A model generated the notes under the pieces. The model saw only the letters and a program-made list of their open reading frames with translations. It had not been told where the DNA came from and did not search any database. DNA of 47,422 bases from assembly GCA_025358295.1 (NCBI GenBank), contig JANYJY010000007.1, positions 1-47,422 on the forward strand, written 5' to 3'. This DNA comes from Gammaproteobacteria bacterium (GTDB lineage: Bacteria > Pseudomonadota > Gammaproteobacteria > Steroidobacterales > Steroidobacteraceae). Position numbers and translations under genes: made by a program. Below are positions 20,202-28,912 of the stretch, in pieces. Every line of letters starts with the position of its first letter. Position 1 is the stretch's first letter.

Positions 20202-20249
20202 TTGACAGGGTCTGCATTTTTATGCAGGATTGCGCGCAATTTTATGCAA
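20202..20249 (+). promoter_or_regulatory. argR operon promoter with ArgR operator palindrome
   Basis: A consensus -35 (TTGACA, 20202-20207) is followed by the perfect palindrome CTGCATTTTTATGCAG (20212-20227), which fits the ARG box pattern of T-G-x-A-T, A/T run, A-T-x-C-A. A second, weaker box overlaps 20234-20249 (GCAATTTTATGCAA), giving the usual pair of adjacent boxes. The -10 is poor (CAGGAT, 20225-20230, spacing 17). The operator covers the promoter and the argR start at 20244, so argR and the genes behind it should be repressed by ArgR with arginine. Confidence 0.7.
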
Positions 20250-20720
20250 GATCTCCACCTACTTGAAGCCGAATCTGAGAATGGCAGCGCCCCGGCGCGC
20301 CGCAGCACTCTCGCGAAAATTATTCGCGAGCAGGCGGTGGGTCGGCAGACGGAACTGGTCGCCCTATTGCGCAAGCTCGGCCATGTGGCGACGCAATCCA
20401 GCGTCAGCCGCGATTTGCGGGAACTGGGGGTGGCAAAGATCGGCGATCGGTATGTGCTGCCCGAGACGCCGCCGGTACCGCGGAATGATTTCTCGACCCT
20501 CAAGCAATTCGTCAGCGCCCGCCTGACCGCCGGCACCAATCTGACCGTGTTGAAAACGACCATCGGCTCCGCGCAAAGCGTGGCCGTCGCCATCGACACC
20601 GCCCGATGGCCCGAGGTTGTCGGCACCATTTCAGGCGATGACACCATATTCATCGCCACCGCCGGGCCGCTCGAACAGCGCCAGCTCGGTGAACGCCTTC
20701 TCGCCATCTTCGGACGCTAA
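20244..20720 (+). CDS. argR: Arginine repressor ArgR
   Basis: A 158-residue arginine-responsive transcription factor. The N-terminal winged helix-turn-helix covers about residues 18-68 with the characteristic TQSSVSRDLRELGVAKIGDR. The C-terminal oligomerisation and arginine-binding domain ends with VGTISGDDTIFIAT, containing the GDD pair that contacts arginine in the family. The ATG at 20244 is preferred because it lies within the operator-promoter region; a TTG-type start 14 codons earlier would overlap the -35. It is the first gene of the arginine operon, with 5 bases to argG, and the palindrome over its promoter indicates autoregulation. Confidence 0.93.
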   Translation: MQDLHLLEAESENGSAPARRSTLAKIIREQAVGRQTELVALLRKLGHVATQSSVSRDLRELGVAKIGDRYVLPETPPVPRNDFSTLKQFVSARLTAGTNLTVLKTTIGSAQSVAVAIDTARWPEVVGTISGDDTIFIATAGPLEQRQLGERLLAIFGR

Positions 20721-20725
20721 AGCCC

Positions 20726-21970
20726 ATGACATCGACTTCCCCGCAGGGCGCCGAGCCCATTCTTCTGGCATTTTCAGGTGGCCTCGACACCTCATTCTGT
20801 GTTCCCTGGCTCAAGGACACTTATCAACGGCCGGTGATCACCGTGACTGTCGACACCGGCGGCATTGATGCCGCGGCGGCGCAGTCCCTGGCTACGCGCT
20901 CCGTGCAGCTGGGCGCCATCGAGCATCACCTGATCGACGCCCGCGGCGCGTACTTCGAGCAGGTGCTGAAATACCTGCTCATGGGCAATGTGCGCCGCGG
21001 TGGTCTGTATCCCCTATGCGTCGGCGCCGAGCGCGTGCTGCAGGCTCAAACCATTGCGCAAATGGCGCTGACACTCAAGACCAAGATGGTCGCGCACGGC
21101 TGCACGGCGGCCGGCAACGATCAAGTACGTTTCGAAGTGGCCCTGCGCGCCTTGGCGCCCGACATTGAAATTATCGCACCGGTGCGCGACCGTGCGTTCA
21201 AGCGTCCCGAGCAACTGAAGTATCTCGAAGATCATCAGCTGCCCATTCCCCCGTTCGGCGCGGCCTACTCGGTGAATCGAGGATTATGGGGAGTCACCAT
21301 CGGCGGCAAGGAGACTCTGACGTCCGAAGGCAGCATTCCGGATGACGCCTGGGTGCTATCGAAGGACGCCTTCTCGAATCCGCGCGCCGCGGAACGTCAT
21401 GTGATCGGATTCCGGCAGGGCGTGCCGGTCAGCCTCGACGGCGCCGCATTGTCCGCCGTCGCCATCATCGAGGCATTGGAAGCCCTGGCCGGGCCCTTCG
21501 GCATCGGCCGCGGCATTCACTTGGGCGACACCGTCATCGGCACCAAGGGTCGCGTGGCATTCGAGGCGCCGGCTGCCGATGTGCTGCTGACGGCGCATCG
21601 CGAATTGGAAAAGCTGGTCCTGACCGGCAAGCAGGCGCGCATCAAAGAATCCGTGGCACAGCCCTACGGCGATCTGGTGCACGAGGGACAGCACTTGGAC
21701 CCGGTGTGCCGCGACATCGAGGCGCTGCTGCTCTCGTCGCAGGCGCGCGTCACCGGGGAAGTCAGAGTGCTGTTCCGGCCGGGCTCGATGTTCGTGGAGG
21801 GTGTCACCTCAGCCTATTCTTTGATGGCGGCGTCGAAAGGCGTCTACGGAGAATCCGCCGGCGAATGGACACCCGTCGATGCGCTGGGCTATTCGAAAAT
21901 GCTGGCCCTGACCGGCGTGTTCTACAAGCGAGCCGGGCAGAACGCCGCGGCACGGGAGCAGAAATCATGA
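20726..21970 (+). CDS. argG: Argininosuccinate synthase
   Basis: ArgG condenses citrulline and aspartate with ATP to argininosuccinate in the cytoplasm. The 414-residue protein starts with the PP-loop LLAFSGGLDTSFCVPWLKD. Further family segments are VAHGCTAAGNDQVRFEVAL (citrulline/aspartate-binding), IIAPVRDRAFKRPEQLKYLE and SVNRGLWGVTIGGKETLTS. Length fits the short argG type found in Xanthomonas and Bacteroidetes. It starts 5 bases after argR, with only a weak ribosome binding site, and its stop overlaps the next ATG (ATGA), so the three genes are tightly coupled. Confidence 0.93.
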   Translation: MTSTSPQGAEPILLAFSGGLDTSFCVPWLKDTYQRPVITVTVDTGGIDAAAAQSLATRSVQLGAIEHHLIDARGAYFEQVLKYLLMGNVRRGGLYPLCVGAERVLQAQTIAQMALTLKTKMVAHGCTAAGNDQVRFEVALRALAPDIEIIAPVRDRAFKRPEQLKYLEDHQLPIPPFGAAYSVNRGLWGVTIGGKETLTSEGSIPDDAWVLSKDAFSNPRAAERHVIGFRQGVPVSLDGAALSAVAIIEALEALAGPFGIGRGIHLGDTVIGTKGRVAFEAPAADVLLTAHRELEKLVLTGKQARIKESVAQPYGDLVHEGQHLDPVCRDIEALLLSSQARVTGEVRVLFRPGSMFVEGVTSAYSLMAASKGVYGESAGEWTPVDALGYSKMLALTGVFYKRAGQNAAAREQKS

Positions 21971-23055
21971 ACCCCATGCGCACGGTGGTCGTCGATAAAA
22001 TCGCCTCCGTGACTCAGGCCTGCGGCCTGTCGCACGAAATTCGTATCGCCAACGACATCCTCTGCGAAGAGGGCGTAGTCATCGTGGTCGAGATACTCAA
22101 CAACAAGTCGACCTACAACACCTTGGAACTGACCAGCGGCCGCATGGCGAAAGTCGCCCGCGGCGACGTGGTGGTCGGCGCTCTCGGTCATCGCAAGGCA
22201 TTGTTCGGTTACTCCGGCCACATCCCGACCTCGCTGAAACCGGGCGATGTGATTCAGATGCTCAACATCGGCGGCGTGCTCGGCATCTGCGATTCGGCGA
22301 CGCCCGACAAGGGCAAGCCCTTCGATTGCAAGGTGTTGGGTGCGGTGCTGACCTTTCCCTATCTCGGCGAGCGCATCGGTGTACCCGCCCGAGCGGGATA
22401 CAAAGCCTTGAACTACGATGCCCCGCTGGACGCGCGCGGCGTTCCCGTGGTGGCGCTCGCCGGCACCTGCATGGAAGCCGGCAAGACCGCCGCCGCCGCC
22501 GCCATCATCGCGCGCATGCGACATCGCGGCCTGGTGGTGGATGCCTTCAAGGCCACCGGTGTCTCGCTGCGGCGTGACATTTTGGCGTTCGAGGACTCCG
22601 GTGCCCGCCGCACCATGATTTTCACCGATCTCGGCATCGTGACCACCACGGCGAAATGCGGTCCCGCGCTGACGCGCACCATGCTCACGGAAATGGCCAG
22701 CGGCCAACCGGATGTCATCGTGTTCGAATTGGGCGACGGCCTGTTGGGTACCTATGGCGTGGAATCCATCCTGCGTCAGCCAGACATCAAGACGGCGTTG
22801 ACCGCGGTGGTCCTGTCCGCCAATGATCCGGTCGCCGCCTGGGGCGGCGTGAAGCTGTTGCGCGAGCGCTTCGGCATTGAGCCCTGCGCGGTCACCGGGC
22901 CCGCAACCGACAATCAAGTCGGGGTCGAGATCATCCGCGAACAGATGAACGTCGAAGCCTTCAATGCCATCAGCAATCCGGCCGATCTCGGTGACTACAT
23001 CATCGGTCGGCTAGGCTTGGGTCATGTGCGCGAAGCCACAGTAGTCGGCGAATGA
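21967..23055 (+). CDS. P-loop protein of unknown function inside the arginine operon (DUF1611/DgcN-like fold)
   Basis: A 362-residue protein with no assigned role. Residues 1-155 form a beta-rich N-terminal domain (VVVGALGHRKALFGYSGHIP, GDVIQMLNIGGVLG). Residues 160-345 resemble a P-loop domain: AGTCMEAGKT at 165-174, VDAFKATGVSLRRDI at 191-205, VIVFELGDGLLGTYG (Walker-B-like) at 250-264 and VVLSANDP near 281. The order recalls DUF1611 proteins; one of these, DgcN, is reported to be a D-glutamate N-acetyltransferase. It overlaps argG and argC by 4 bases at both ends. No argA, argJ or GNAT domain is present in the operon, so I propose it makes N-acyl-L-glutamate. The family link and the function are both inference; an NTPase chaperone or regulator is possible. 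Confidence 0.55.
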   Translation: MNPMRTVVVDKIASVTQACGLSHEIRIANDILCEEGVVIVVEILNNKSTYNTLELTSGRMAKVARGDVVVGALGHRKALFGYSGHIPTSLKPGDVIQMLNIGGVLGICDSATPDKGKPFDCKVLGAVLTFPYLGERIGVPARAGYKALNYDAPLDARGVPVVALAGTCMEAGKTAAAAAIIARMRHRGLVVDAFKATGVSLRRDILAFEDSGARRTMIFTDLGIVTTTAKCGPALTRTMLTEMASGQPDVIVFELGDGLLGTYGVESILRQPDIKTALTAVVLSANDPVAAWGGVKLLRERFGIEPCAVTGPATDNQVGVEIIREQMNVEAFNAISNPADLGDYIIGRLGLGHVREATVVGE

Positions 23056-24113
23056 GCGCGGCCACTCCCGCCATCGTCCTTGGCGGCACCGGCTACGTGG
23101 CCGGAGAACTGCTGCGCCTGATCGCGGGACATCCCGAACTCGATGTCGCCGCCATCCTCTCGGATAGTCAGCCCGGTGCACCGGTCGCGGCTGCATTCGC
23201 CCACTTGGCGAACGCCTACCCCGAGTTGAAATTCAGTGACCTGGAATCGATCGAGGCACTCATCCGGCGCACGCCGCGCGTCGCGCTGTTCTCCGCCGCA
23301 CCGCATGGAGTGGCGGCCGCCATTATCGATCGCCTGCTGAGCGCAGCGCAGGCCGCGGGCACACGCCTGCACTGTGTCGACATTTCGGCGGACTTTCGCT
23401 ACTCCACTGCCGCCGCTTATGAGGCGGTGTACAAGCACGCGCACGGCGCACCGGCGCGAATTCGCGAATTCACCTGCGCGTTGCCGGAGCATTTGCCGCA
23501 ATCGCCGACAGCGCATGTGGCGCATCCCGGCTGCTTCGCGACGGCCACCCTGCTCGCCACGGTACCGTTGCTGGCACTGGGTCTCACCGACGCGCGCCTG
23601 TTTGTCACCGGCATCACCGGCAGTACGGGCTCGGGCCGCAAGCCGGTTGAAGGCACGCATCATCCGTTGAGGCACAGTGACCTCTACAGTTACGGTGCGC
23701 TGAGCCATCGGCACGTGCCGGAGATCATCGCTTGCGCGAGAGCCGCCACGGGCATCGAGGCTGAGCTCAATTTTGTGCCGCACTCCGGCCCGTTCGCGCG
23801 CGGTATCCATGTGACCGTGCAGGCCAGCCTCAAAAAACCGGTCAGCACCGTGCAGGCCTTGGAAGCGTTCAAGTCCTTTTACAAGAACTCGCCCTTCGTG
23901 CGCGTCGGCGACACGGCGCCGCGTATAAAGGATGTGGCGACCAGCAATTATGCGAACTTGAGCGCGGTGACCAACGGCAATTCCATTGCCGTCATGTCCG
24001 TGCTCGATAATCTGAACAAGGGCGCCGCGGGCGGCGCCATTCAATGGATGAATCGTCTGTTGGGTATTGCCGAAACGACCGGTCTTACCGCCGCAGCGCC
24101 CGGTTGGACTTAA
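23052..24113 (+). CDS. argC: N-acyl-gamma-glutamyl-phosphate reductase
   Basis: ArgC reduces N-acyl-glutamyl phosphate with NADPH to the semialdehyde. The 353-residue protein has the nucleotide-binding motif VLGGTGYVAGELLRLI at its N-terminus, the catalytic cysteine in VAHPGCFATATL (about residue 160), and TGSTGSGRKPVEGTHHPLR followed by SHRHVPEI carrying the active-site histidine. The C-terminal FVPHSGPFARGIHVTV and ATSNYANL are also standard. It overlaps the P-loop gene by ATGA and precedes argD by 12 bases. Acetylated and succinylated substrates cannot be told apart from this sequence alone. Confidence 0.93.
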   Translation: MSAATPAIVLGGTGYVAGELLRLIAGHPELDVAAILSDSQPGAPVAAAFAHLANAYPELKFSDLESIEALIRRTPRVALFSAAPHGVAAAIIDRLLSAAQAAGTRLHCVDISADFRYSTAAAYEAVYKHAHGAPARIREFTCALPEHLPQSPTAHVAHPGCFATATLLATVPLLALGLTDARLFVTGITGSTGSGRKPVEGTHHPLRHSDLYSYGALSHRHVPEIIACARAATGIEAELNFVPHSGPFARGIHVTVQASLKKPVSTVQALEAFKSFYKNSPFVRVGDTAPRIKDVATSNYANLSAVTNGNSIAVMSVLDNLNKGAAGGAIQWMNRLLGIAETTGLTAAAPGWT

Positions 24114-24125
24114 GAGGACACGGGA

Positions 24126-25298
24126 ATGAATGCGATAACAGCAACGGCCACGACACAGGCGCTCAAGAGTCATTTGGCGCAGGTATTCGCGCAATACCCC
24201 GTCGAAGTGGCGCACGGCGACGGCGTCTGGCTGCACTCGCGCGACGGCCGCAAGATTTTGGATTTCTACGGTGGGCACGCTGTCGCGGGCTTAGGCTACG
24301 GTCATCCGCGCTGGTTGGCCGCGCTTGAGCGCCAGTCCCGGCAAATGACGTTTCAGACCAATGCATTGCCCATGGTCGTCCGTGAGCGCGCCGCTGCGCG
24401 TCTGTCGAAGTTCGTGGGGCTCGGCCTCGACACGGTGTTCTGGATCAACAGTGGCGCCGAAGCCAATGAGAATGCGCTCAAGCTCGCCTTCAAACTGACC
24501 GGCCGCGACAAAGTCGTCGCGCTCGAACAAGGATTTCACGGCAGAACCGCGGCCGCCGGCGCGGTCACCTGGGGAGCGCTCGAAAAATGGTATGGCTTTC
24601 CCCGCCGTCCCTTCGATGTGAGCTTCACGCCGCGCGACAATCCGTCGCTGGTGGAGAAAGCCGTCGACCGGGACACGGCCGCGGTCATCGTCGAGCCGGT
24701 GCAAGGAGTGGGCGGCGCCTATGAGGTGGGCAAACCCATGCTGCAGGCGTTGCGGCAGCGCTGCGATGAAACCGGTGCGATGTTGATATTCGACGAGGTG
24801 CAATGCGGAGTGGGCCGCACCGGCGCGCCCTTTGCGGCGAATCTGTACGGCGTCGCTCCGGACATGATCACCGCGGCGAAGGCCTTGGGGAATGGCTTTC
24901 CGGTGGCCGCGCTATTGATGTCGCGCCGCATCGCCGGACAACTCAAGTACGACGACATGGGCACGACATTCGGCGGCGGCCCCATGGCCTGTGCGATTGC
25001 CGAAGCGGTCATCGACACCATCGAATCCGAATCGCTGCTGGCGAACGTCCGTCAGGTGTCGGCCTACATCCGCTCCAGCTGCATCATCGGCCCGGTCACC
25101 GCCGTACAAGGTGCCGGGTTTCTATTGGGCTTGAAGACCTCGCGCCCCGCCAAGGAAGTGCAGGCCGCCCTGCTCGCCAAGAACATTCTCGCCGGCACCA
25201 GCGCGGATCCGCACATCCTGCGGCTGCTGCCGGCATACATATTGAACGAGGGCCATGTGGATCAACTGAGTGACGCCTTGGCGCAGATTTCCGCATGA
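24126..25298 (+). CDS. argD: Acylornithine aminotransferase (class III PLP enzyme)
   Basis: This enzyme transfers an amino group from glutamate to N-acyl-glutamate semialdehyde, giving N-acyl-ornithine. The 390-residue protein has WINSGAEANENALKLA (PLP phosphate site), GFHGRT, the cofactor aspartate in LIFDEVQCGVGRTG (D223) and the Schiff-base lysine K252 in ITAAKALGNGFPVA. The segment LDFYGGHAVAGLGYGHP and the TTFGGGPMAC motif resemble the Bacteroidetes enzymes acting on succinylated substrate more than enterobacterial ArgD, in line with the transcarbamylase that follows. Its stop overlaps the ATG of the next gene. Confidence 0.9.
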   Translation: MNAITATATTQALKSHLAQVFAQYPVEVAHGDGVWLHSRDGRKILDFYGGHAVAGLGYGHPRWLAALERQSRQMTFQTNALPMVVRERAAARLSKFVGLGLDTVFWINSGAEANENALKLAFKLTGRDKVVALEQGFHGRTAAAGAVTWGALEKWYGFPRRPFDVSFTPRDNPSLVEKAVDRDTAAVIVEPVQGVGGAYEVGKPMLQALRQRCDETGAMLIFDEVQCGVGRTGAPFAANLYGVAPDMITAAKALGNGFPVAALLMSRRIAGQLKYDDMGTTFGGGPMACAIAEAVIDTIESESLLANVRQVSAYIRSSCIIGPVTAVQGAGFLLGLKTSRPAKEVQAALLAKNILAGTSADPHILRLLPAYILNEGHVDQLSDALAQISA

Positions 25299-26290
25299 AA
25301 CGCTTTTTGAGCCTGGCCGACTTCAGCCGCGAACAAGTCCTGGATCTGCTCGCCTTGGCGCAGTCTCTGCAAGACAAGCCGCAGCCACGCGCGTTGGCGG
25401 GCAAGATCCTGGGGTTGGTATTCTTCAATGCCTCGCTGCGCACGCTGGCCTCTTTTCAGGCAGGCATGGCGCGCCTCGGCGGCACCTCCTTCGTCATCAC
25501 CCCGGGCCAGGGAACCTGGCAATTGGAAACTCGACTCAATGCCATCATGAACGGCGCCGCCGCCGAACACATCCGCGAGGGCATACCGGTGTTGGCCTCG
25601 TACTGCGATGCCCTGGGCGTGCGCGCCTTCGCCGAAGGCAAGAATCTGTCGGCCGATCTGGGCGAATCCTTGTTCAAGATGATCGATGCCCTGTGCGACA
25701 AGCCGCTGATCAATCTGGAATCCGCGATGAATCATCCCTGCCAGGCTCTGGCGGACTGGCGAACCCTGGATGAACTGCGCGTGCCGCAGCGGGCCAAGTT
25801 TGTCTTGAGCTGGGTCTATCATCCTCGGGCCCTGCCTCTGGCCGTGCCCTCCGCCACCGTGCACATGGCCGCGATGCGCGGCATGGAAGTCGTGGTGCTG
25901 CGGCCGGAGGGGTTCGCCCTGCCGCCGCAGATTATGGAGGAGGCGCGTTTGGCCGCCTGCGCCGCCGGCGGCTCGCTGACGGAAACCTCCGACCGCGCGG
26001 CCGCGCTCGCCGGCGCGAGCGTGCTGTACGCCAAGGAATGGGGCACCACCATGTACTACGGGGACACCGAGGCGGATTTGCGGCTGCGGTCGGACTTGTC
26101 CGATTGGTGCGTGCGCGAGCCCTGGTTCAAGGGCGCTTTGCCCGATGCAAAGTTGATGCATTGTCTTCCGGTGCGCCGCAACGTCGCGGTGGCCGATGAA
26201 ATTCTGGATGGACCGCGCGCGGTGGTGAAGCGCGAGGCCTTCAATCGTCTGACGGTGCAGATGGCTGTTCTGCATCGCATGCTGTCCTGA
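25295..26290 (+). CDS. N-acylornithine carbamoyltransferase, predicted N-succinylornithine type
   Basis: This 331-residue transcarbamylase belongs to the ArgF' branch, which carbamoylates acylated ornithine to acyl-citrulline. Marks of the branch are VFFNASLRT, EHIREGIPVLASYCDALGVRAF, WVYHPRALPLAVP, LYAKEWG and HCLPVRRN. The residue that in my memory discriminates substrates (Glu92 in Xanthomonas acetylornithine enzyme, Pro90 in the Bacteroides succinylornithine enzyme) is Ala90 here (NGAAAEHI), and the Xanthomonas carboxylated lysine position in RRNVKAT is Ala298 (RRNVAVA). Both favour succinylornithine. Unusually the carbamoyl-phosphate motif reads SLRTLAS, not SxRTR: the last arginine is Leu51. 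It overlaps argD and is followed by argB after 27 bases. Confidence 0.85.
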   Translation: MKRFLSLADFSREQVLDLLALAQSLQDKPQPRALAGKILGLVFFNASLRTLASFQAGMARLGGTSFVITPGQGTWQLETRLNAIMNGAAAEHIREGIPVLASYCDALGVRAFAEGKNLSADLGESLFKMIDALCDKPLINLESAMNHPCQALADWRTLDELRVPQRAKFVLSWVYHPRALPLAVPSATVHMAAMRGMEVVVLRPEGFALPPQIMEEARLAACAAGGSLTETSDRAAALAGASVLYAKEWGTTMYYGDTEADLRLRSDLSDWCVREPWFKGALPDAKLMHCLPVRRNVAVADEILDGPRAVVKREAFNRLTVQMAVLHRMLS

Positions 26291-26317: not shown

Positions 26318-27262
26318 ATGATTATGAGTCGACCTGATCCTTCCATCGCCGTGCGCGCGCTCAAGAGCGCGGCGCCTTACATACGGATGTACAAGAACAA
26401 AGTATTCATCATCAAGGCAGGCGGCGCCGTATTCAGCGACGAGATTTCGACTCGCGCCCTGATCGAGCAAGTGGCGATTCTGCACCAGGTGGGCATCAAG
26501 ACCGTTTTGGTTCATGGCGGCGGCCCGCAACTCGACAGCATGCAGGCGAGTCTGGGTATCGATACCCACATGGTCAACGGCCGCCGGGTCACCGATCAGA
26601 AGTCCATCGATGTCACCGCCATGGTGCTGAATGGCTTGATCAACACGCGCATTCTGGCCATCTGCCGCGAGCTCGACATCGAGGCCATCGGCCTGAGCGG
26701 TGTCGATGCCGGCCTGATCCGCGCGCACAAGCGCCCTCCGGTGCGCAGCGCCGATGGGTCGGGCGAAGCCGTGGACTATGGCTTCGTCGGCAACATCGAT
26801 TCGGTCAACACCGATGTGATCGAAAAATTGCTCATGAACGGCCTGATGCCCGTGGTGAGTCCGCTGTCGGCCGACTCCAACGGCATCCTGCTCAATATCA
26901 ACGCCGACACCGTGGCTGCCGCCATCGGCGGCGCGTTGTCGGCGGAGAAACTCGTGCTGTGTACCGGCGCACAAGGAATTCTCGAGCGCAGCGAAGACCC
27001 GACGTCGGTGGTTTCGTACACCGACATCAAGGGCCTGAAGCGGCTGCGCGATCAGGGTTCGCTCAAGGACGGGATGCTGCCCAAGGCAGCGGCCATCGAG
27101 AACGCCATCCGTGGCGGCGTGCGTCGCGTGCACGTCATCAGCTACAAATCCCCTGACAGTTTGCTGGCGGAGATTTTCACTAATGAAGGCACGGGCACCC
27201 TGGTGGTCGCGGATCTCACGGCCTTGAGTCCCGCCGAGCAGCAGAGCGCCCTGGGCGCGTGA
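26318..27262 (+). CDS. argB: Acylglutamate kinase
   Basis: ArgB phosphorylates N-acyl-glutamate, the second step of the pathway and commonly the arginine-inhibited one. The 314-residue amino-acid-kinase protein contains VFIIKAGGAVFSDE, VLVHGGGPQLDSM (substrate/ATP glycine-rich loop), the NGRRVTD motif, GLSGVDAGLI and LLNINADTVAAAIGGAL. The C-terminus ends after LLAEIFTNEGTGTLVV and carries no GNAT domain, unlike the bifunctional synthase-kinases of Xanthomonas, so the first step must be done by another protein. The N-terminal 30 residues (SIAVRALKSAAPYIRMYKN) are close to those of that branch. Confidence 0.92.
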   Translation: MIMSRPDPSIAVRALKSAAPYIRMYKNKVFIIKAGGAVFSDEISTRALIEQVAILHQVGIKTVLVHGGGPQLDSMQASLGIDTHMVNGRRVTDQKSIDVTAMVLNGLINTRILAICRELDIEAIGLSGVDAGLIRAHKRPPVRSADGSGEAVDYGFVGNIDSVNTDVIEKLLMNGLMPVVSPLSADSNGILLNINADTVAAAIGGALSAEKLVLCTGAQGILERSEDPTSVVSYTDIKGLKRLRDQGSLKDGMLPKAAAIENAIRGGVRRVHVISYKSPDSLLAEIFTNEGTGTLVVADLTALSPAEQQSALGA

Positions 27263-27275
27263 TCCGGGCATCGAC

Positions 27276-28466
27276 ATGACGCGCCTCTGGGACAAGGGAA
27301 CTCCGCTCGACGCGCGGGTGCTGCAGTACACGGCAGGCGATGATTATCTTTTGGATAACCGCCTGGTCCGCTACGACATCCAAGCCTCCATCGCCCACGC
27401 CGAGATGTTGGCGGTAAAGGGGCTGTTGTCGGCACCGGACCTTGCCGCGATCCGCGGCGCATTGACCGCCATCGGCGAGGAACATGCGCAGGGACAATGG
27501 CGCATCTCCTTGGAACAAGAGGACTGCCAGACGGCGATCGAAAATCTGCTCACCGCGCGCATCAAAGCCGCCGGTGGCCGCTTGCATGCCGGCCGCTCGC
27601 GCAACGATCAGGTGCTGGCGGCATTGCGGCTGTACCTGCGCGACGCTGCCGCAGGTCTGCAGCTGGGCGCGACCGCCGTTGCGGATTCGCTCGATGCACT
27701 CGCCGCACGCCATGGCGACATGGTGCTGCCCGGCTACACCCATATGCAGCAGGCCATGCCCAGCTCCGTGGCCCTCTGGGCGCAGGGCTTTGCTGCTGAA
27801 ATACGCGACGACGCCGAAGGACTGGCGCTCACGCAACGGCGAATCGGCAAGAACCCGCTCGGCTCCGCCGCGGGTTACGGTACGCCGAATCTCGATCTGA
27901 GCCGCGAGGAAACTCGGCGGCGCCTCGGCTTCGCCGTCACTCAGGAGCCGGTGACGGCAGTGCAACTGTCGCGCGGCAAGGCCGAGGCGCAGCTGCTGTT
28001 TGAAATCACATTGTTGGCACAGGACGCGGGAAGAATCGCGGCCGACCTGATGCTTTTCTACACCCAGGAATTCGGTTTCGTGACGCTGCCCGCGGCCTTC
28101 ACCACGGGCTCCTCCATCATGCCGCAGAAGCGCAATCCCGATGTCTTCGAACTGATGCGCGGACGCAGTTCGGTGGCGCAAGCTGCGCTCAACGAAGTAC
28201 TCGGCATCACGCAAAAACTAACCTCGGGCTATCATCGCGATCTGCAGCTGATTAAGCCGCCCCTGTTCCGCGGCATCGATTCCTGCGCACAGACGCTCGA
28301 TATTCTGCCAACCGCTCTCGACGGTGTGAGCTTCAAGGCCGAGAACATTCTTCTCGATCCCGGCATCCATGCCGCCGCCGCCGCGAACGCCTTGGTGGCC
28401 AAGGAAGGGATTCCGTTTCGCGAGGCCTATCGCCGCATAGCCGCGCAACTCAAGGGCGGCGAGTGA
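27276..28466 (+). CDS. argH: Argininosuccinate lyase
   Basis: ArgH splits argininosuccinate into arginine and fumarate, the last step of the route. The 396-residue protein shows HAGRSRNDQV, YTHMQQAMPSS (catalytic histidine region), NPLGSAAGYGTPNLD and the family signature GSSIMPQKRNPDVFE. It is about 60 residues shorter than E. coli ArgH; the deficit is mostly at the C-terminus, which ends soon after EGIPFREAYRRIA, a shortening I also associate with other compact argH types. The stop overlaps the GTG of the following thioesterase (GTGA), so the operon continues into that gene. Confidence 0.92.
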   Translation: MTRLWDKGTPLDARVLQYTAGDDYLLDNRLVRYDIQASIAHAEMLAVKGLLSAPDLAAIRGALTAIGEEHAQGQWRISLEQEDCQTAIENLLTARIKAAGGRLHAGRSRNDQVLAALRLYLRDAAAGLQLGATAVADSLDALAARHGDMVLPGYTHMQQAMPSSVALWAQGFAAEIRDDAEGLALTQRRIGKNPLGSAAGYGTPNLDLSREETRRRLGFAVTQEPVTAVQLSRGKAEAQLLFEITLLAQDAGRIAADLMLFYTQEFGFVTLPAAFTTGSSIMPQKRNPDVFELMRGRSSVAQAALNEVLGITQKLTSGYHRDLQLIKPPLFRGIDSCAQTLDILPTALDGVSFKAENILLDPGIHAAAAANALVAKEGIPFREAYRRIAAQLKGGE

Positions 28467-28912
28467 GCATTTGGCGCGGCTTGCAATCTCTGGACGCGTT
28501 GAACGTCGGTCAATCCGGCGGGCTGATCGGACACCTGGGGATCAAGTTCACTGAAATCGGCGCTGACTTCATTCGCGCCACCATGCCCGTCGACGCTCAT
28601 TCGCGCCAGCCCTACGGCTTGCTTCATGGCGGCGCCTCGACCGCATTCGCCGAGACCGTCGGGACGACGGCCGCGGCCATGTGTGTCGACCCGCGAAAAT
28701 TCCAGTGCGCCGGGCAGGAAATCAGCGCCAACCATGTGCGCGCCGCCCGCGGTGGGCTGGTGACCGCCACGGCGCGTCCCATGCACTTGGGGGGACGCAG
28801 CCAAATCTGGGGCATCGACATCGTCGATCAGGCCGGAAAATTAGTATGCACGTCGCGGTTGACCGTCGCCGTGAGCCGATCCGGCGCCGCGGACGACTCG
28901 AGATCACGCTAG
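28463..28912 (+). CDS. Hotdog-fold acyl-CoA thioesterase (YdiI/PaaI-like)
   Basis: A 149-residue thioesterase of the hotdog superfamily, which hydrolyses acyl- or aryl-CoA. The active-site region RQPYGLLHGGASTAFAETVG is the diagnostic HGG-x3-x-E pattern, and QEISANHVRAARGG and HLGGRSQIWGIDI are the following strands. The GTG start overlaps the argH stop, making it the last gene of the arginine operon. It is not a normal member of arginine operons. Its presence beside a predicted acyl-CoA-dependent first step could mean CoA recycling or mere hitch-hiking; the sequence cannot decide. Confidence 0.85.
   Translation: MSIWRGLQSLDALNVGQSGGLIGHLGIKFTEIGADFIRATMPVDAHSRQPYGLLHGGASTAFAETVGTTAAAMCVDPRKFQCAGQEISANHVRAARGGLVTATARPMHLGGRSQIWGIDIVDQAGKLVCTSRLTVAVSRSGAADDSRSR

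Follow-up and report, generated by a model that had tools for sequence, protein, structure and literature searches.

The window analysed here is the whole 47,422-nucleotide stretch (positions 1 to 47,422, forward strand) of contig JANYJY010000007.1, assembly GCA_025358295.1, from a gammaproteobacterium of the family Steroidobacteraceae in the order Steroidobacterales. It contains an arginine synthesis cluster with the gene order argR-argG-P-argC-argD-argF′-argB-argH, in which P denotes an open reading frame (ORF, 21967–23055, + strand) for a 362-residue protein carrying the Walker A motif AGTCMEAGKT. From genetic and structural context, we consider it rather likely that P is the missing first enzyme, an N-succinylglutamate synthase, of a succinyl-type arginine pathway. 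The features of the locus are the following; scores are those of Pfam and NCBIfam models, and pLDDT stands for predicted local distance difference test.

20202..20720, + strand: argR, arginine repressor, first gene of the cluster (PF02863 63.7 bits, PF01316 47.5 bits)
20726..21970, + strand: argG, argininosuccinate synthase, overlapping the P gene by 4 bases (TIGR00032 272.7 bits, cut-off 268.2)
21967..23055, + strand: P gene, P-loop protein of 362 residues, proposed L-glutamate N-succinyltransferase of the first step (no Pfam or NCBIfam match over cut-off)
21967..22434, + strand: predicted N-terminal all-beta domain of P, residues 1–156 (AlphaFold2 mean pLDDT 90.7; no PDB match at E ≤ 0.001 with Foldseek)
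22453..22497, + strand: Walker A stretch of P, ALAGTCMEAGKTAAA, residues 163–177, with K173/T174 (G166, M169, G172, K173 and T174 invariant in 49 sequences)
23052..24113, + strand: argC, N-acyl-gamma-glutamyl-phosphate reductase, overlapping the P gene by 4 bases (TIGR01850 273 bits, cut-off 233.6)
24126..25298, + strand: argD, acylornithine aminotransferase family (PF00202 285 bits; TIGR00707 309.7 bits, under the cut-off of 410)
25295..26290, + strand: argF′, acylornithine carbamoyltransferase with Ala/Pro/Ala at Xanthomonas positions 92/185/302 (NF003384 330.9 bits, cut-off 288)
26318..27262, + strand: argB, N-acylglutamate kinase, 314 residues, without a fused acyltransferase (TIGR00761 213.6 bits, cut-off 151.3; PF00696 only)
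27276..28466, + strand: argH, argininosuccinate lyase (TIGR00838 291.3 bits, cut-off 279.5)
28463..28912: hotdog (4HBT) thioesterase, named by Pfam/NCBIfam, overlapping argH by 4 bases

The arginine operon is ordinary save for the missing first step and the missing deacylase, and of its conserved proteins P is the one able to take that first step. No GNAT, ArgJ or ArgE gene was found among the ten window genes scanned at the cluster with Pfam and NCBIfam, and the argB product matched as a kinase domain only. An earlier note on this DNA had described the AGTCMEAGKT protein as overlapping argG and argC by four bases each, in an operon with an unfused argB and without argA, argJ or a GNAT gene; the coordinates (21970 for the end of argG, 23052 for the start of argC) and the ten-gene scan agree with it on every count.

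To what extent is this arrangement conserved? In a sample of 147 genomes of the order, with the window's own genome included, P was matched in 115, but in six of these (G003, G007, G030, G053, G063 and G125) solely through a paralogue that is about 30% identical. An orthologue is therefore present in 109 genomes, in some of them in fragments, with 57–90% identity (the window's own gene apart). Of 30 short loci, the window among them, 29 preserve the arrangement argG-P-argC, as do all 20 wide loci, which were picked for diversity and span 11.6–17 kb. Among the short loci argC is the next gene downstream in 30/30 and argG the next upstream in 29/30, the remaining one (L011) having argG beyond a divergent argR. 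The full order argR-argG-P-argC-argD-argF′-argB-argH recurs in 20/20 wide loci with no gap of more than 113 bases between matches from argR to argH, so that P alone among these genes lacks an assigned role. The 4HBT gene was set aside as a pathway member, since it lies beside argH in just 3 of these 20 loci. The best 80 of 563 confirmed named relatives, up to 94% identical, are nearly all titled metagenome-assembled genomes (MAGs) of Gammaproteobacteria, Proteobacteria or Steroidobacteraceae. Where these 80 loci leave room, argG lies within 300 bases upstream in 75/77 (at 334 bases in L152, with no argG match in L179) and argC within 300 bases downstream in 77/77. With its orthologues and the kept argG-P-argC order, P is a genuine gene and not a chance ORF. 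One of the 80, L177 (CAMCBU010000002.1), is titled a Klebsiella pneumoniae MAG; with a P 77% identical to that of the window and a P-type carbamoyltransferase, it looks mistitled.

The known first-step enzymes are distributed in a complementary manner. The NAT domain PF04768, which belongs to the N-acetylglutamate synthase (NAGS)/kinase, occurs in 21 of the 147 genomes and in none of the 109 with a P orthologue; the P gene and the NAT domain are thus mutually exclusive over the sampled genomes. The match lies in an open frame of 438–466 codons in 17 of the 21 genomes and in a shorter one in the other four, including G019, whose matches are on different contigs. Classical ArgA (TIGR01890) exceeded its cut-off in 0/147 genomes, the many sub-threshold matches being mostly ArgB itself, and ArgJ (PF01960) was found in 0/147, own genome included, with the same search positive in 10 of 14 control genomes. 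PF04768 was not found in the own genome; it was also absent from the 14 control genomes, but 21 genomes of the order were positive. The tests named by the earlier note, co-occurrence of the family with argC and argF′ and a search of the genome for argA, argJ or a GNAT-argB fusion, come out in its favour by these counts. Neither a P orthologue nor NAT was seen in 17/147 genomes: TIGR01890 finds nothing in 14, where ArgB was thus not seen, and gives weak matches only in G125 (best E 5.9e-5), while argB is present in G100 and G131 on contigs that end before the place of P. Family f7 is mixed, with P in most sampled genomes and NAT in G137. Fisher's test on the 147 genomes gives p 2e-15, a value that takes no account of relatedness and is not counted towards independence.

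This pattern bears on the interpretation that P is an accessory ATPase or GTPase, serving assembly, regulation or carbamoyl-phosphate channelling, with the succinylation of glutamate left to a GNAT or DapD elsewhere that escaped recognition. The fold class of P, as described below, includes the regulatory GTPases FtsY and HypB, and besides argB the own genome yields one TIGR01890 match to a GNAT part (E 1.4e-7, in a 163-residue open frame on another contig), a weak ArgA-like stretch, other GNATs not having been surveyed. An accessory protein, however, would not be expected to show strict exclusion of NAT over 147 genomes, and the GNAT-part matches are weak (E ~1e-7) and present in some genomes only, among the matches listed. 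We regard this interpretation as quite improbable.

The likely acyl group can be read from the carbamoyltransferase, whose positions 92, 185 and 302 were taken from an alignment to the Xanthomonas chain. According to a transcarbamylase family review, the acetyl enzyme is marked by Glu92, Asn185 and Lys302, and the succinyl enzyme by Ala/Ser/Pro/Val/Gln, Pro and Val/Ile/Glu, respectively (PMC4581275); the GapMind paper likewise links Ser, Pro, Ala or Val at the first position with a preference for the succinyl substrate (PMC7311316). ArgF′ of the window has Ala-Pro-Ala, with positions 92 and 185 within the published succinyl set. The wide P loci have Ala-Pro in 20/20 (position 302 Val in 19, Ala in 1), as do L072, L074 and L075 from P genomes (Val in 2, Ala in 1) and all MAG loci with a readable carbamoyltransferase (68/80; Ala in 66, Val in 1, cut off in 1). 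Together with the window, this amounts to Ala-Pro in 92/92 P-side sequences of the order, some of whose genomes may overlap; the carbamoyltransferases of the contig-cut genomes G100 and G131 also have Ala-Pro. In contrast, the NAT genomes have Glu-Asn in 18/18 sequences read, with Lys (15) or Gln (3) at position 302; of the further NAT genomes, G018 has a partial copy with Glu at 92, G063 only a divergent copy, and G081 no copy. Because the carbamoyltransferase residues change together with the acyltransferase, the operon most likely works on succinylated intermediates, and P most likely N-succinylates L-glutamate. Judged from these residues, the acyl group in the P operon is most likely succinyl rather than acetyl.

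It could instead be that P acylates glutamate with acetyl-CoA or another donor, the carbamoyltransferase residues not being faithful to the acyl group. In favour of this, residue 302 of the window is Ala instead of one of the listed Val, Ile or Glu, the model matched over its cut-off, NF003384, is named N-acetylornithine carbamoyltransferase, and the remote relative DgcN is reported to acetylate D-glutamate. The contrast of Ala-Pro in 92/92 P-side sequences with Glu-Asn in 18/18 NAT sequences argues against it, as do the carbamoyltransferases of P loci outside the order, which have Pro-Pro-Glu, Pro-Pro-Glu and Val-Pro-Glu, other letters of the same published succinyl set. There is, in our estimate, only a slight chance that the donor is of this kind. 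The earlier suggestion of a P-loop acyltransferase for L-glutamate is supported, with none of its named refuting results observed and with catalysis still deduced, and the acyl group is to be amended to succinyl, most likely, and not acetyl.

A divergent second argF′-like carbamoyltransferase, 45–49% identical to that of the window, was seen in L098–L104 (G053, G004, G042, G016, G033, G063 and G030). These copies have an HHA motif at the specificity loop, and a 4HBT thioesterase adjoins them in 6 of the 7 loci; the hosts are NAT-type genomes, plus G042, where argB was not found. Their residue varies at position 92, is Pro at 185, and is either Ser or Gly at 302. Lying outside arginine clusters as far as the short loci reach, they were kept out of the residue counts.

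P matches no Pfam or NCBIfam model over any cut-off, the sole Pfam match listed being PF07755 (DUF1611) at 14.3 bits against a cut-off of 25. The names MobB, CbiA and BioD were rejected, with matches far below their cut-offs, and two designed leucine-rich-repeat chains found in the PDB by phmmer (E 4e-6 and 7e-4) were dismissed as a repeat artefact, no single stretch passing. The AlphaFold2 model, built on an alignment of 49 sequences, has a pLDDT of 92.8 and a predicted TM-score (pTM) of 0.90. Its best Foldseek match is the dethiobiotin synthetase 3of5 (E 5.5e-7, TM-score 0.38 by query length), and further matches are FtsY/Ffh and HypB, which presumably cover the P-loop half; no DUF1611 structure was found among the best 50 of the 179 matches at E ≤ 0.001. 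The best PDB profile match is also BioD (E 0.026, residues 155–204). The GTxxxxGKT Walker A motif, with K173 and T174 invariant in the 49 sequences, and the fold agree with a BioD-like P-loop domain. The N-terminal domain, modelled alone, found no PDB match at E ≤ 0.001, and the best of 114 matches at E ≤ 10 was at 0.93. In the model, the BioD-like P-loop domain of P is thus preceded by an additional beta domain at the N-terminus. Invariant in 49/49 sequences are G74, R76, A78, G103, G166, M169, G172, K173, T174, K195 and T197, as well as G198, D204, G212, A213, F219, D221, G223, D249, E254, A285 and G311; these 22 residues point to one shared active site in the P family.

A likeness to DUF1611 proteins such as DgcN had been suggested by the earlier note, and it holds only as a remote link through paralogues. 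P misses the PF07755 cut-off and has no match at E ≤ 1 to PF17396 (DUF1611_N), a Rossmann-like N-terminal domain, its own predicted N-terminal domain being nearly all beta; nor was full-length homology to DUF1611 recovered by profile-profile comparison. The P family aligns with a group of paralogues, here called type B, at E 5e-38 over 304 columns, and type B aligns with DUF1611 at E 1e-4 with a probability of 57%; two type-B proteins score 27.8 (L052) and 24.4 bits (L060) with PF07755 (cut-off 25). With a weak alignment of P to DUF1611 and type B in between, P is at most a distant cousin and not a member. Contig 51 of the own genome separately encodes a true DUF1611/DgcN-type protein (L070:6910-7932, PF07755 254 bits), which is matched by PDB entries 7xrj, strongly, 2obn and 2g0t. 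By eye, beta-lactamase-like genes adjoin it.

The second gap in the operon is deacylation. The NAT clusters are arranged as argF′-argG-(M20-like)-argB/NAT-argC-argH, and an M20/DapE query was matched between argG and argB in 8 of 10 by tblastn; L266 has a gene-sized gap at this place, with an ORF that by eye resembles M20, whereas argG and argB adjoin in L271. No M20/DapE match was found in the 20 wide P loci. With the M20-like gene in most NAT clusters and in none of the wide P loci, the P clusters miss both an acylase and a deacylase. Therefore, one may ask whether P fills the other step, desuccinylating N-succinylcitrulline, or closes both gaps as a transsuccinylase that shifts the succinyl group from N-succinylcitrulline to glutamate, as a counterpart of ArgJ, for which both steps in one protein are on record (PMC4490483).

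Against this, a candidate for desuccinylation is available elsewhere. DapE is matched at E ≤ 1e-60 in 105 of the 109 P genomes (in G002 and G006 in pieces under the cut-off), and the four without a match (G054, G071, G115 and G140) are all in many contigs; with so few and such fragmented genomes, absence of DapE was uninformative as a discriminator between acylase and deacylase. The compact P genome G005 (1.6 Mb, 98% complete) has two M20 matches, one being DapE (485 bits, cut-off 361.8) and the other exported-looking by eye. DapE is the desuccinylase of lysine synthesis, so that a natural guess is its action on N-succinylcitrulline, and by analogy it may remove the succinyl group in P genomes. 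The presence of a candidate for desuccinylation and of none for acylation speaks against P as the desuccinylase. Moreover, paralogues of P adjoin a separate M20 hydrolase, and P-loop domains of the BioD/HypB/FtsY class are not known to act as amidohydrolases. A role of P in desuccinylation or transsuccinylation is in our view unlikely.

From the computed gene order, co-occurrence, NAT exclusion, co-varying carbamoyltransferase residues and fold class, we infer the catalysis, the donor, the residues involved and the part of DapE as follows. P would succinylate L-glutamate at its alpha-amino group to give N-succinylglutamate, which the products of argB, argC, argD and argF′ would convert to N-succinylcitrulline. 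Citrulline would then be released for ArgG and ArgH by a desuccinylase encoded outside the operon, in all likelihood DapE. The acyl donor is most likely succinyl-CoA, with succinate and ATP as another possibility; its phosphates would be bound by the BioD-like P-loop domain, and the N-terminal beta domain may help to bind glutamate.

Several observations weigh against P as the N-succinylglutamate synthase. The intact Walker A motif fits an ATP-using ligase or kinase equally well, and the operon also lacks a deacylase, so that P could fill that step. The link to DgcN is weak, the hhalign comparison of the P family with DUF1611 giving E 0.002 and a probability of 13% over 66 columns around the P-loop. 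Ala302, in the window and 66 of the 68 readable MAG loci, belongs to neither published list, being neither Lys nor Val, Ile or Glu. The negative results for acyltransferases in the own genome cover ArgJ, PF04768 and ArgA; other GNATs and DapD were not looked at. Finally, presence and absence of P and NAT follow clades, so that the 147 genomes are not independent events.

P also occurs outside the order. A sample of 369 genomes of the class yielded P in four that lie outside the order (43–46% identity, E ≤ 1e-40), in all four within argG-P-argC. The three long loci among them hold the same eight genes in another order, argD-argF′-argB-argH-argG-P-argC; L242 has a wider interval between argC and P, in which no ORF of 100 codons is shown. 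In a sample of 398 genomes of the phylum, G760, of another class, has a P of 72% identity beside argR, argC and argB (L281; the carbamoyltransferase is not within the fetched stretch), and G736 has a type-B paralogue only. In the tree, which carries a long-branch warning, the arginine-linked P proteins all form a single clade (100/98) that excludes the paralogues. The P of G760 nests inside the window's own family, which suggests a recent transfer, or a binning error or contamination.

The settings of the paralogues are also informative. Type-B genes directly follow an M20 hydrolase gene in 17/17 fetched loci of the order (more type-B genes were listed than fetched), and a flavin-reductase-like gene precedes the M20 gene in 16 of the 17, the contig ending in the last. 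This module was seen in L052–L061, L063–L068 and L071, plus L282 in one more genome of the phylum, and in L055 a gamma-glutamyltranspeptidase gene follows it; it looks like an undescribed amino-acid acylation/deacylation unit. A homologue of 25% identity on a Priestia megaterium plasmid (L275, NZ_CP085446.1, 85461-94149) neighbours genes for phosphoenolpyruvate mutase, ornithine carbamoyltransferase, two ATP-grasp ligases and an M20 hydrolase, in an apparent phosphonate cluster. Both settings fit capping and uncapping of amino acids and give independent, indirect support to an acylating role of P. The type-C homologues adjoin ABC transporters, with no M20 or capping setting shown: in L274 (Sulfitobacter plasmid) and L276 (Paracoccus plasmid), annotated as DUF1611, an ABC transporter gene follows directly; type C also occurs in L062 and L069, an ABC-type gene following in L069 by eye. 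Plasmid members of the wider family are currently annotated as hypothetical, DUF1611 or dethiobiotin synthase. It is quite possible, though somewhat less likely than not, that these proteins form a new superfamily of amino-acid N-acyltransferases, combining a BioD-like P-loop domain with an unmatched beta domain and placing removable acyl caps, with three branches: succinyl-type arginine synthesis in Gammaproteobacteria, the flavin reductase-M20-P-loop module, and the plasmid phosphonate cluster with carbamoyltransferase and M20 hydrolase.

How does P compare with known systems? BT3761 and Cabys_1732 are enzymes of the GNAT type. BT3761, or ArgA2, the proposed N-succinylglutamate synthase of Bacteroidetes, would perform the reaction suggested for P, and likewise goes with a succinylornithine carbamoyltransferase and an ArgB kinase (PMC7311316, PMC9026213); it is more than 50% identical to the NAGS Cabys_1732 (PMC7311316). 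Unlike BT3761, P is a P-loop protein without a GNAT match, found in Gammaproteobacteria and in one genome of another class. NAGS/K (Xanthomonas, Maricaulis), in which PF04768 is fused to ArgB, serves this step in other lineages of the order and likewise accompanies an acylornithine carbamoyltransferase; it differs from P in its fold, its fusion to the kinase and its acetyl-type carbamoyltransferase residues, and occurs in 0/109 P genomes. DgcN, a DUF1611 protein (PF17396 and PF07755), is reportedly a D-glutamate N-acetyltransferase. Like P, it has a P-loop domain with a GT....GK motif in its C-terminal half, whereas P falls below the PF07755 cut-off, lacks a DUF1611_N match and aligns around the P-loop only. 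BioD, the best Foldseek and PDB profile match, differs in that P has an extra N-terminal beta domain, an arginine context and no BioD family match over cut-off. The DgcN-DgcA route is mentioned in two papers (PMC12363236, PMC10845958). The known glutamate-capping enzymes are GNATs, ArgJ and the LysW/ArgX carrier route, and a 2015 review gives the glutamate succinylation gene as not identified (PMC4490483); ArgA2/BT3761 has since been proposed for Bacteroidetes (PMC7311316, PMC9026213). Among the matches listed from open PubMed Central (PMC) papers, none concerned such a P-loop enzyme.

P belongs to no known protein family and probably represents a new family of enzymes that catalyse a reaction already known. 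If this is true, P would be an unrelated solution to the capping of glutamate in most sampled genomes of a soil and water order, and succinyl-type arginine synthesis would extend outside Bacteroidetes. An apparent gap in the arginine pathway would be removed from these genomes, and a wider P-loop family would gain a function.

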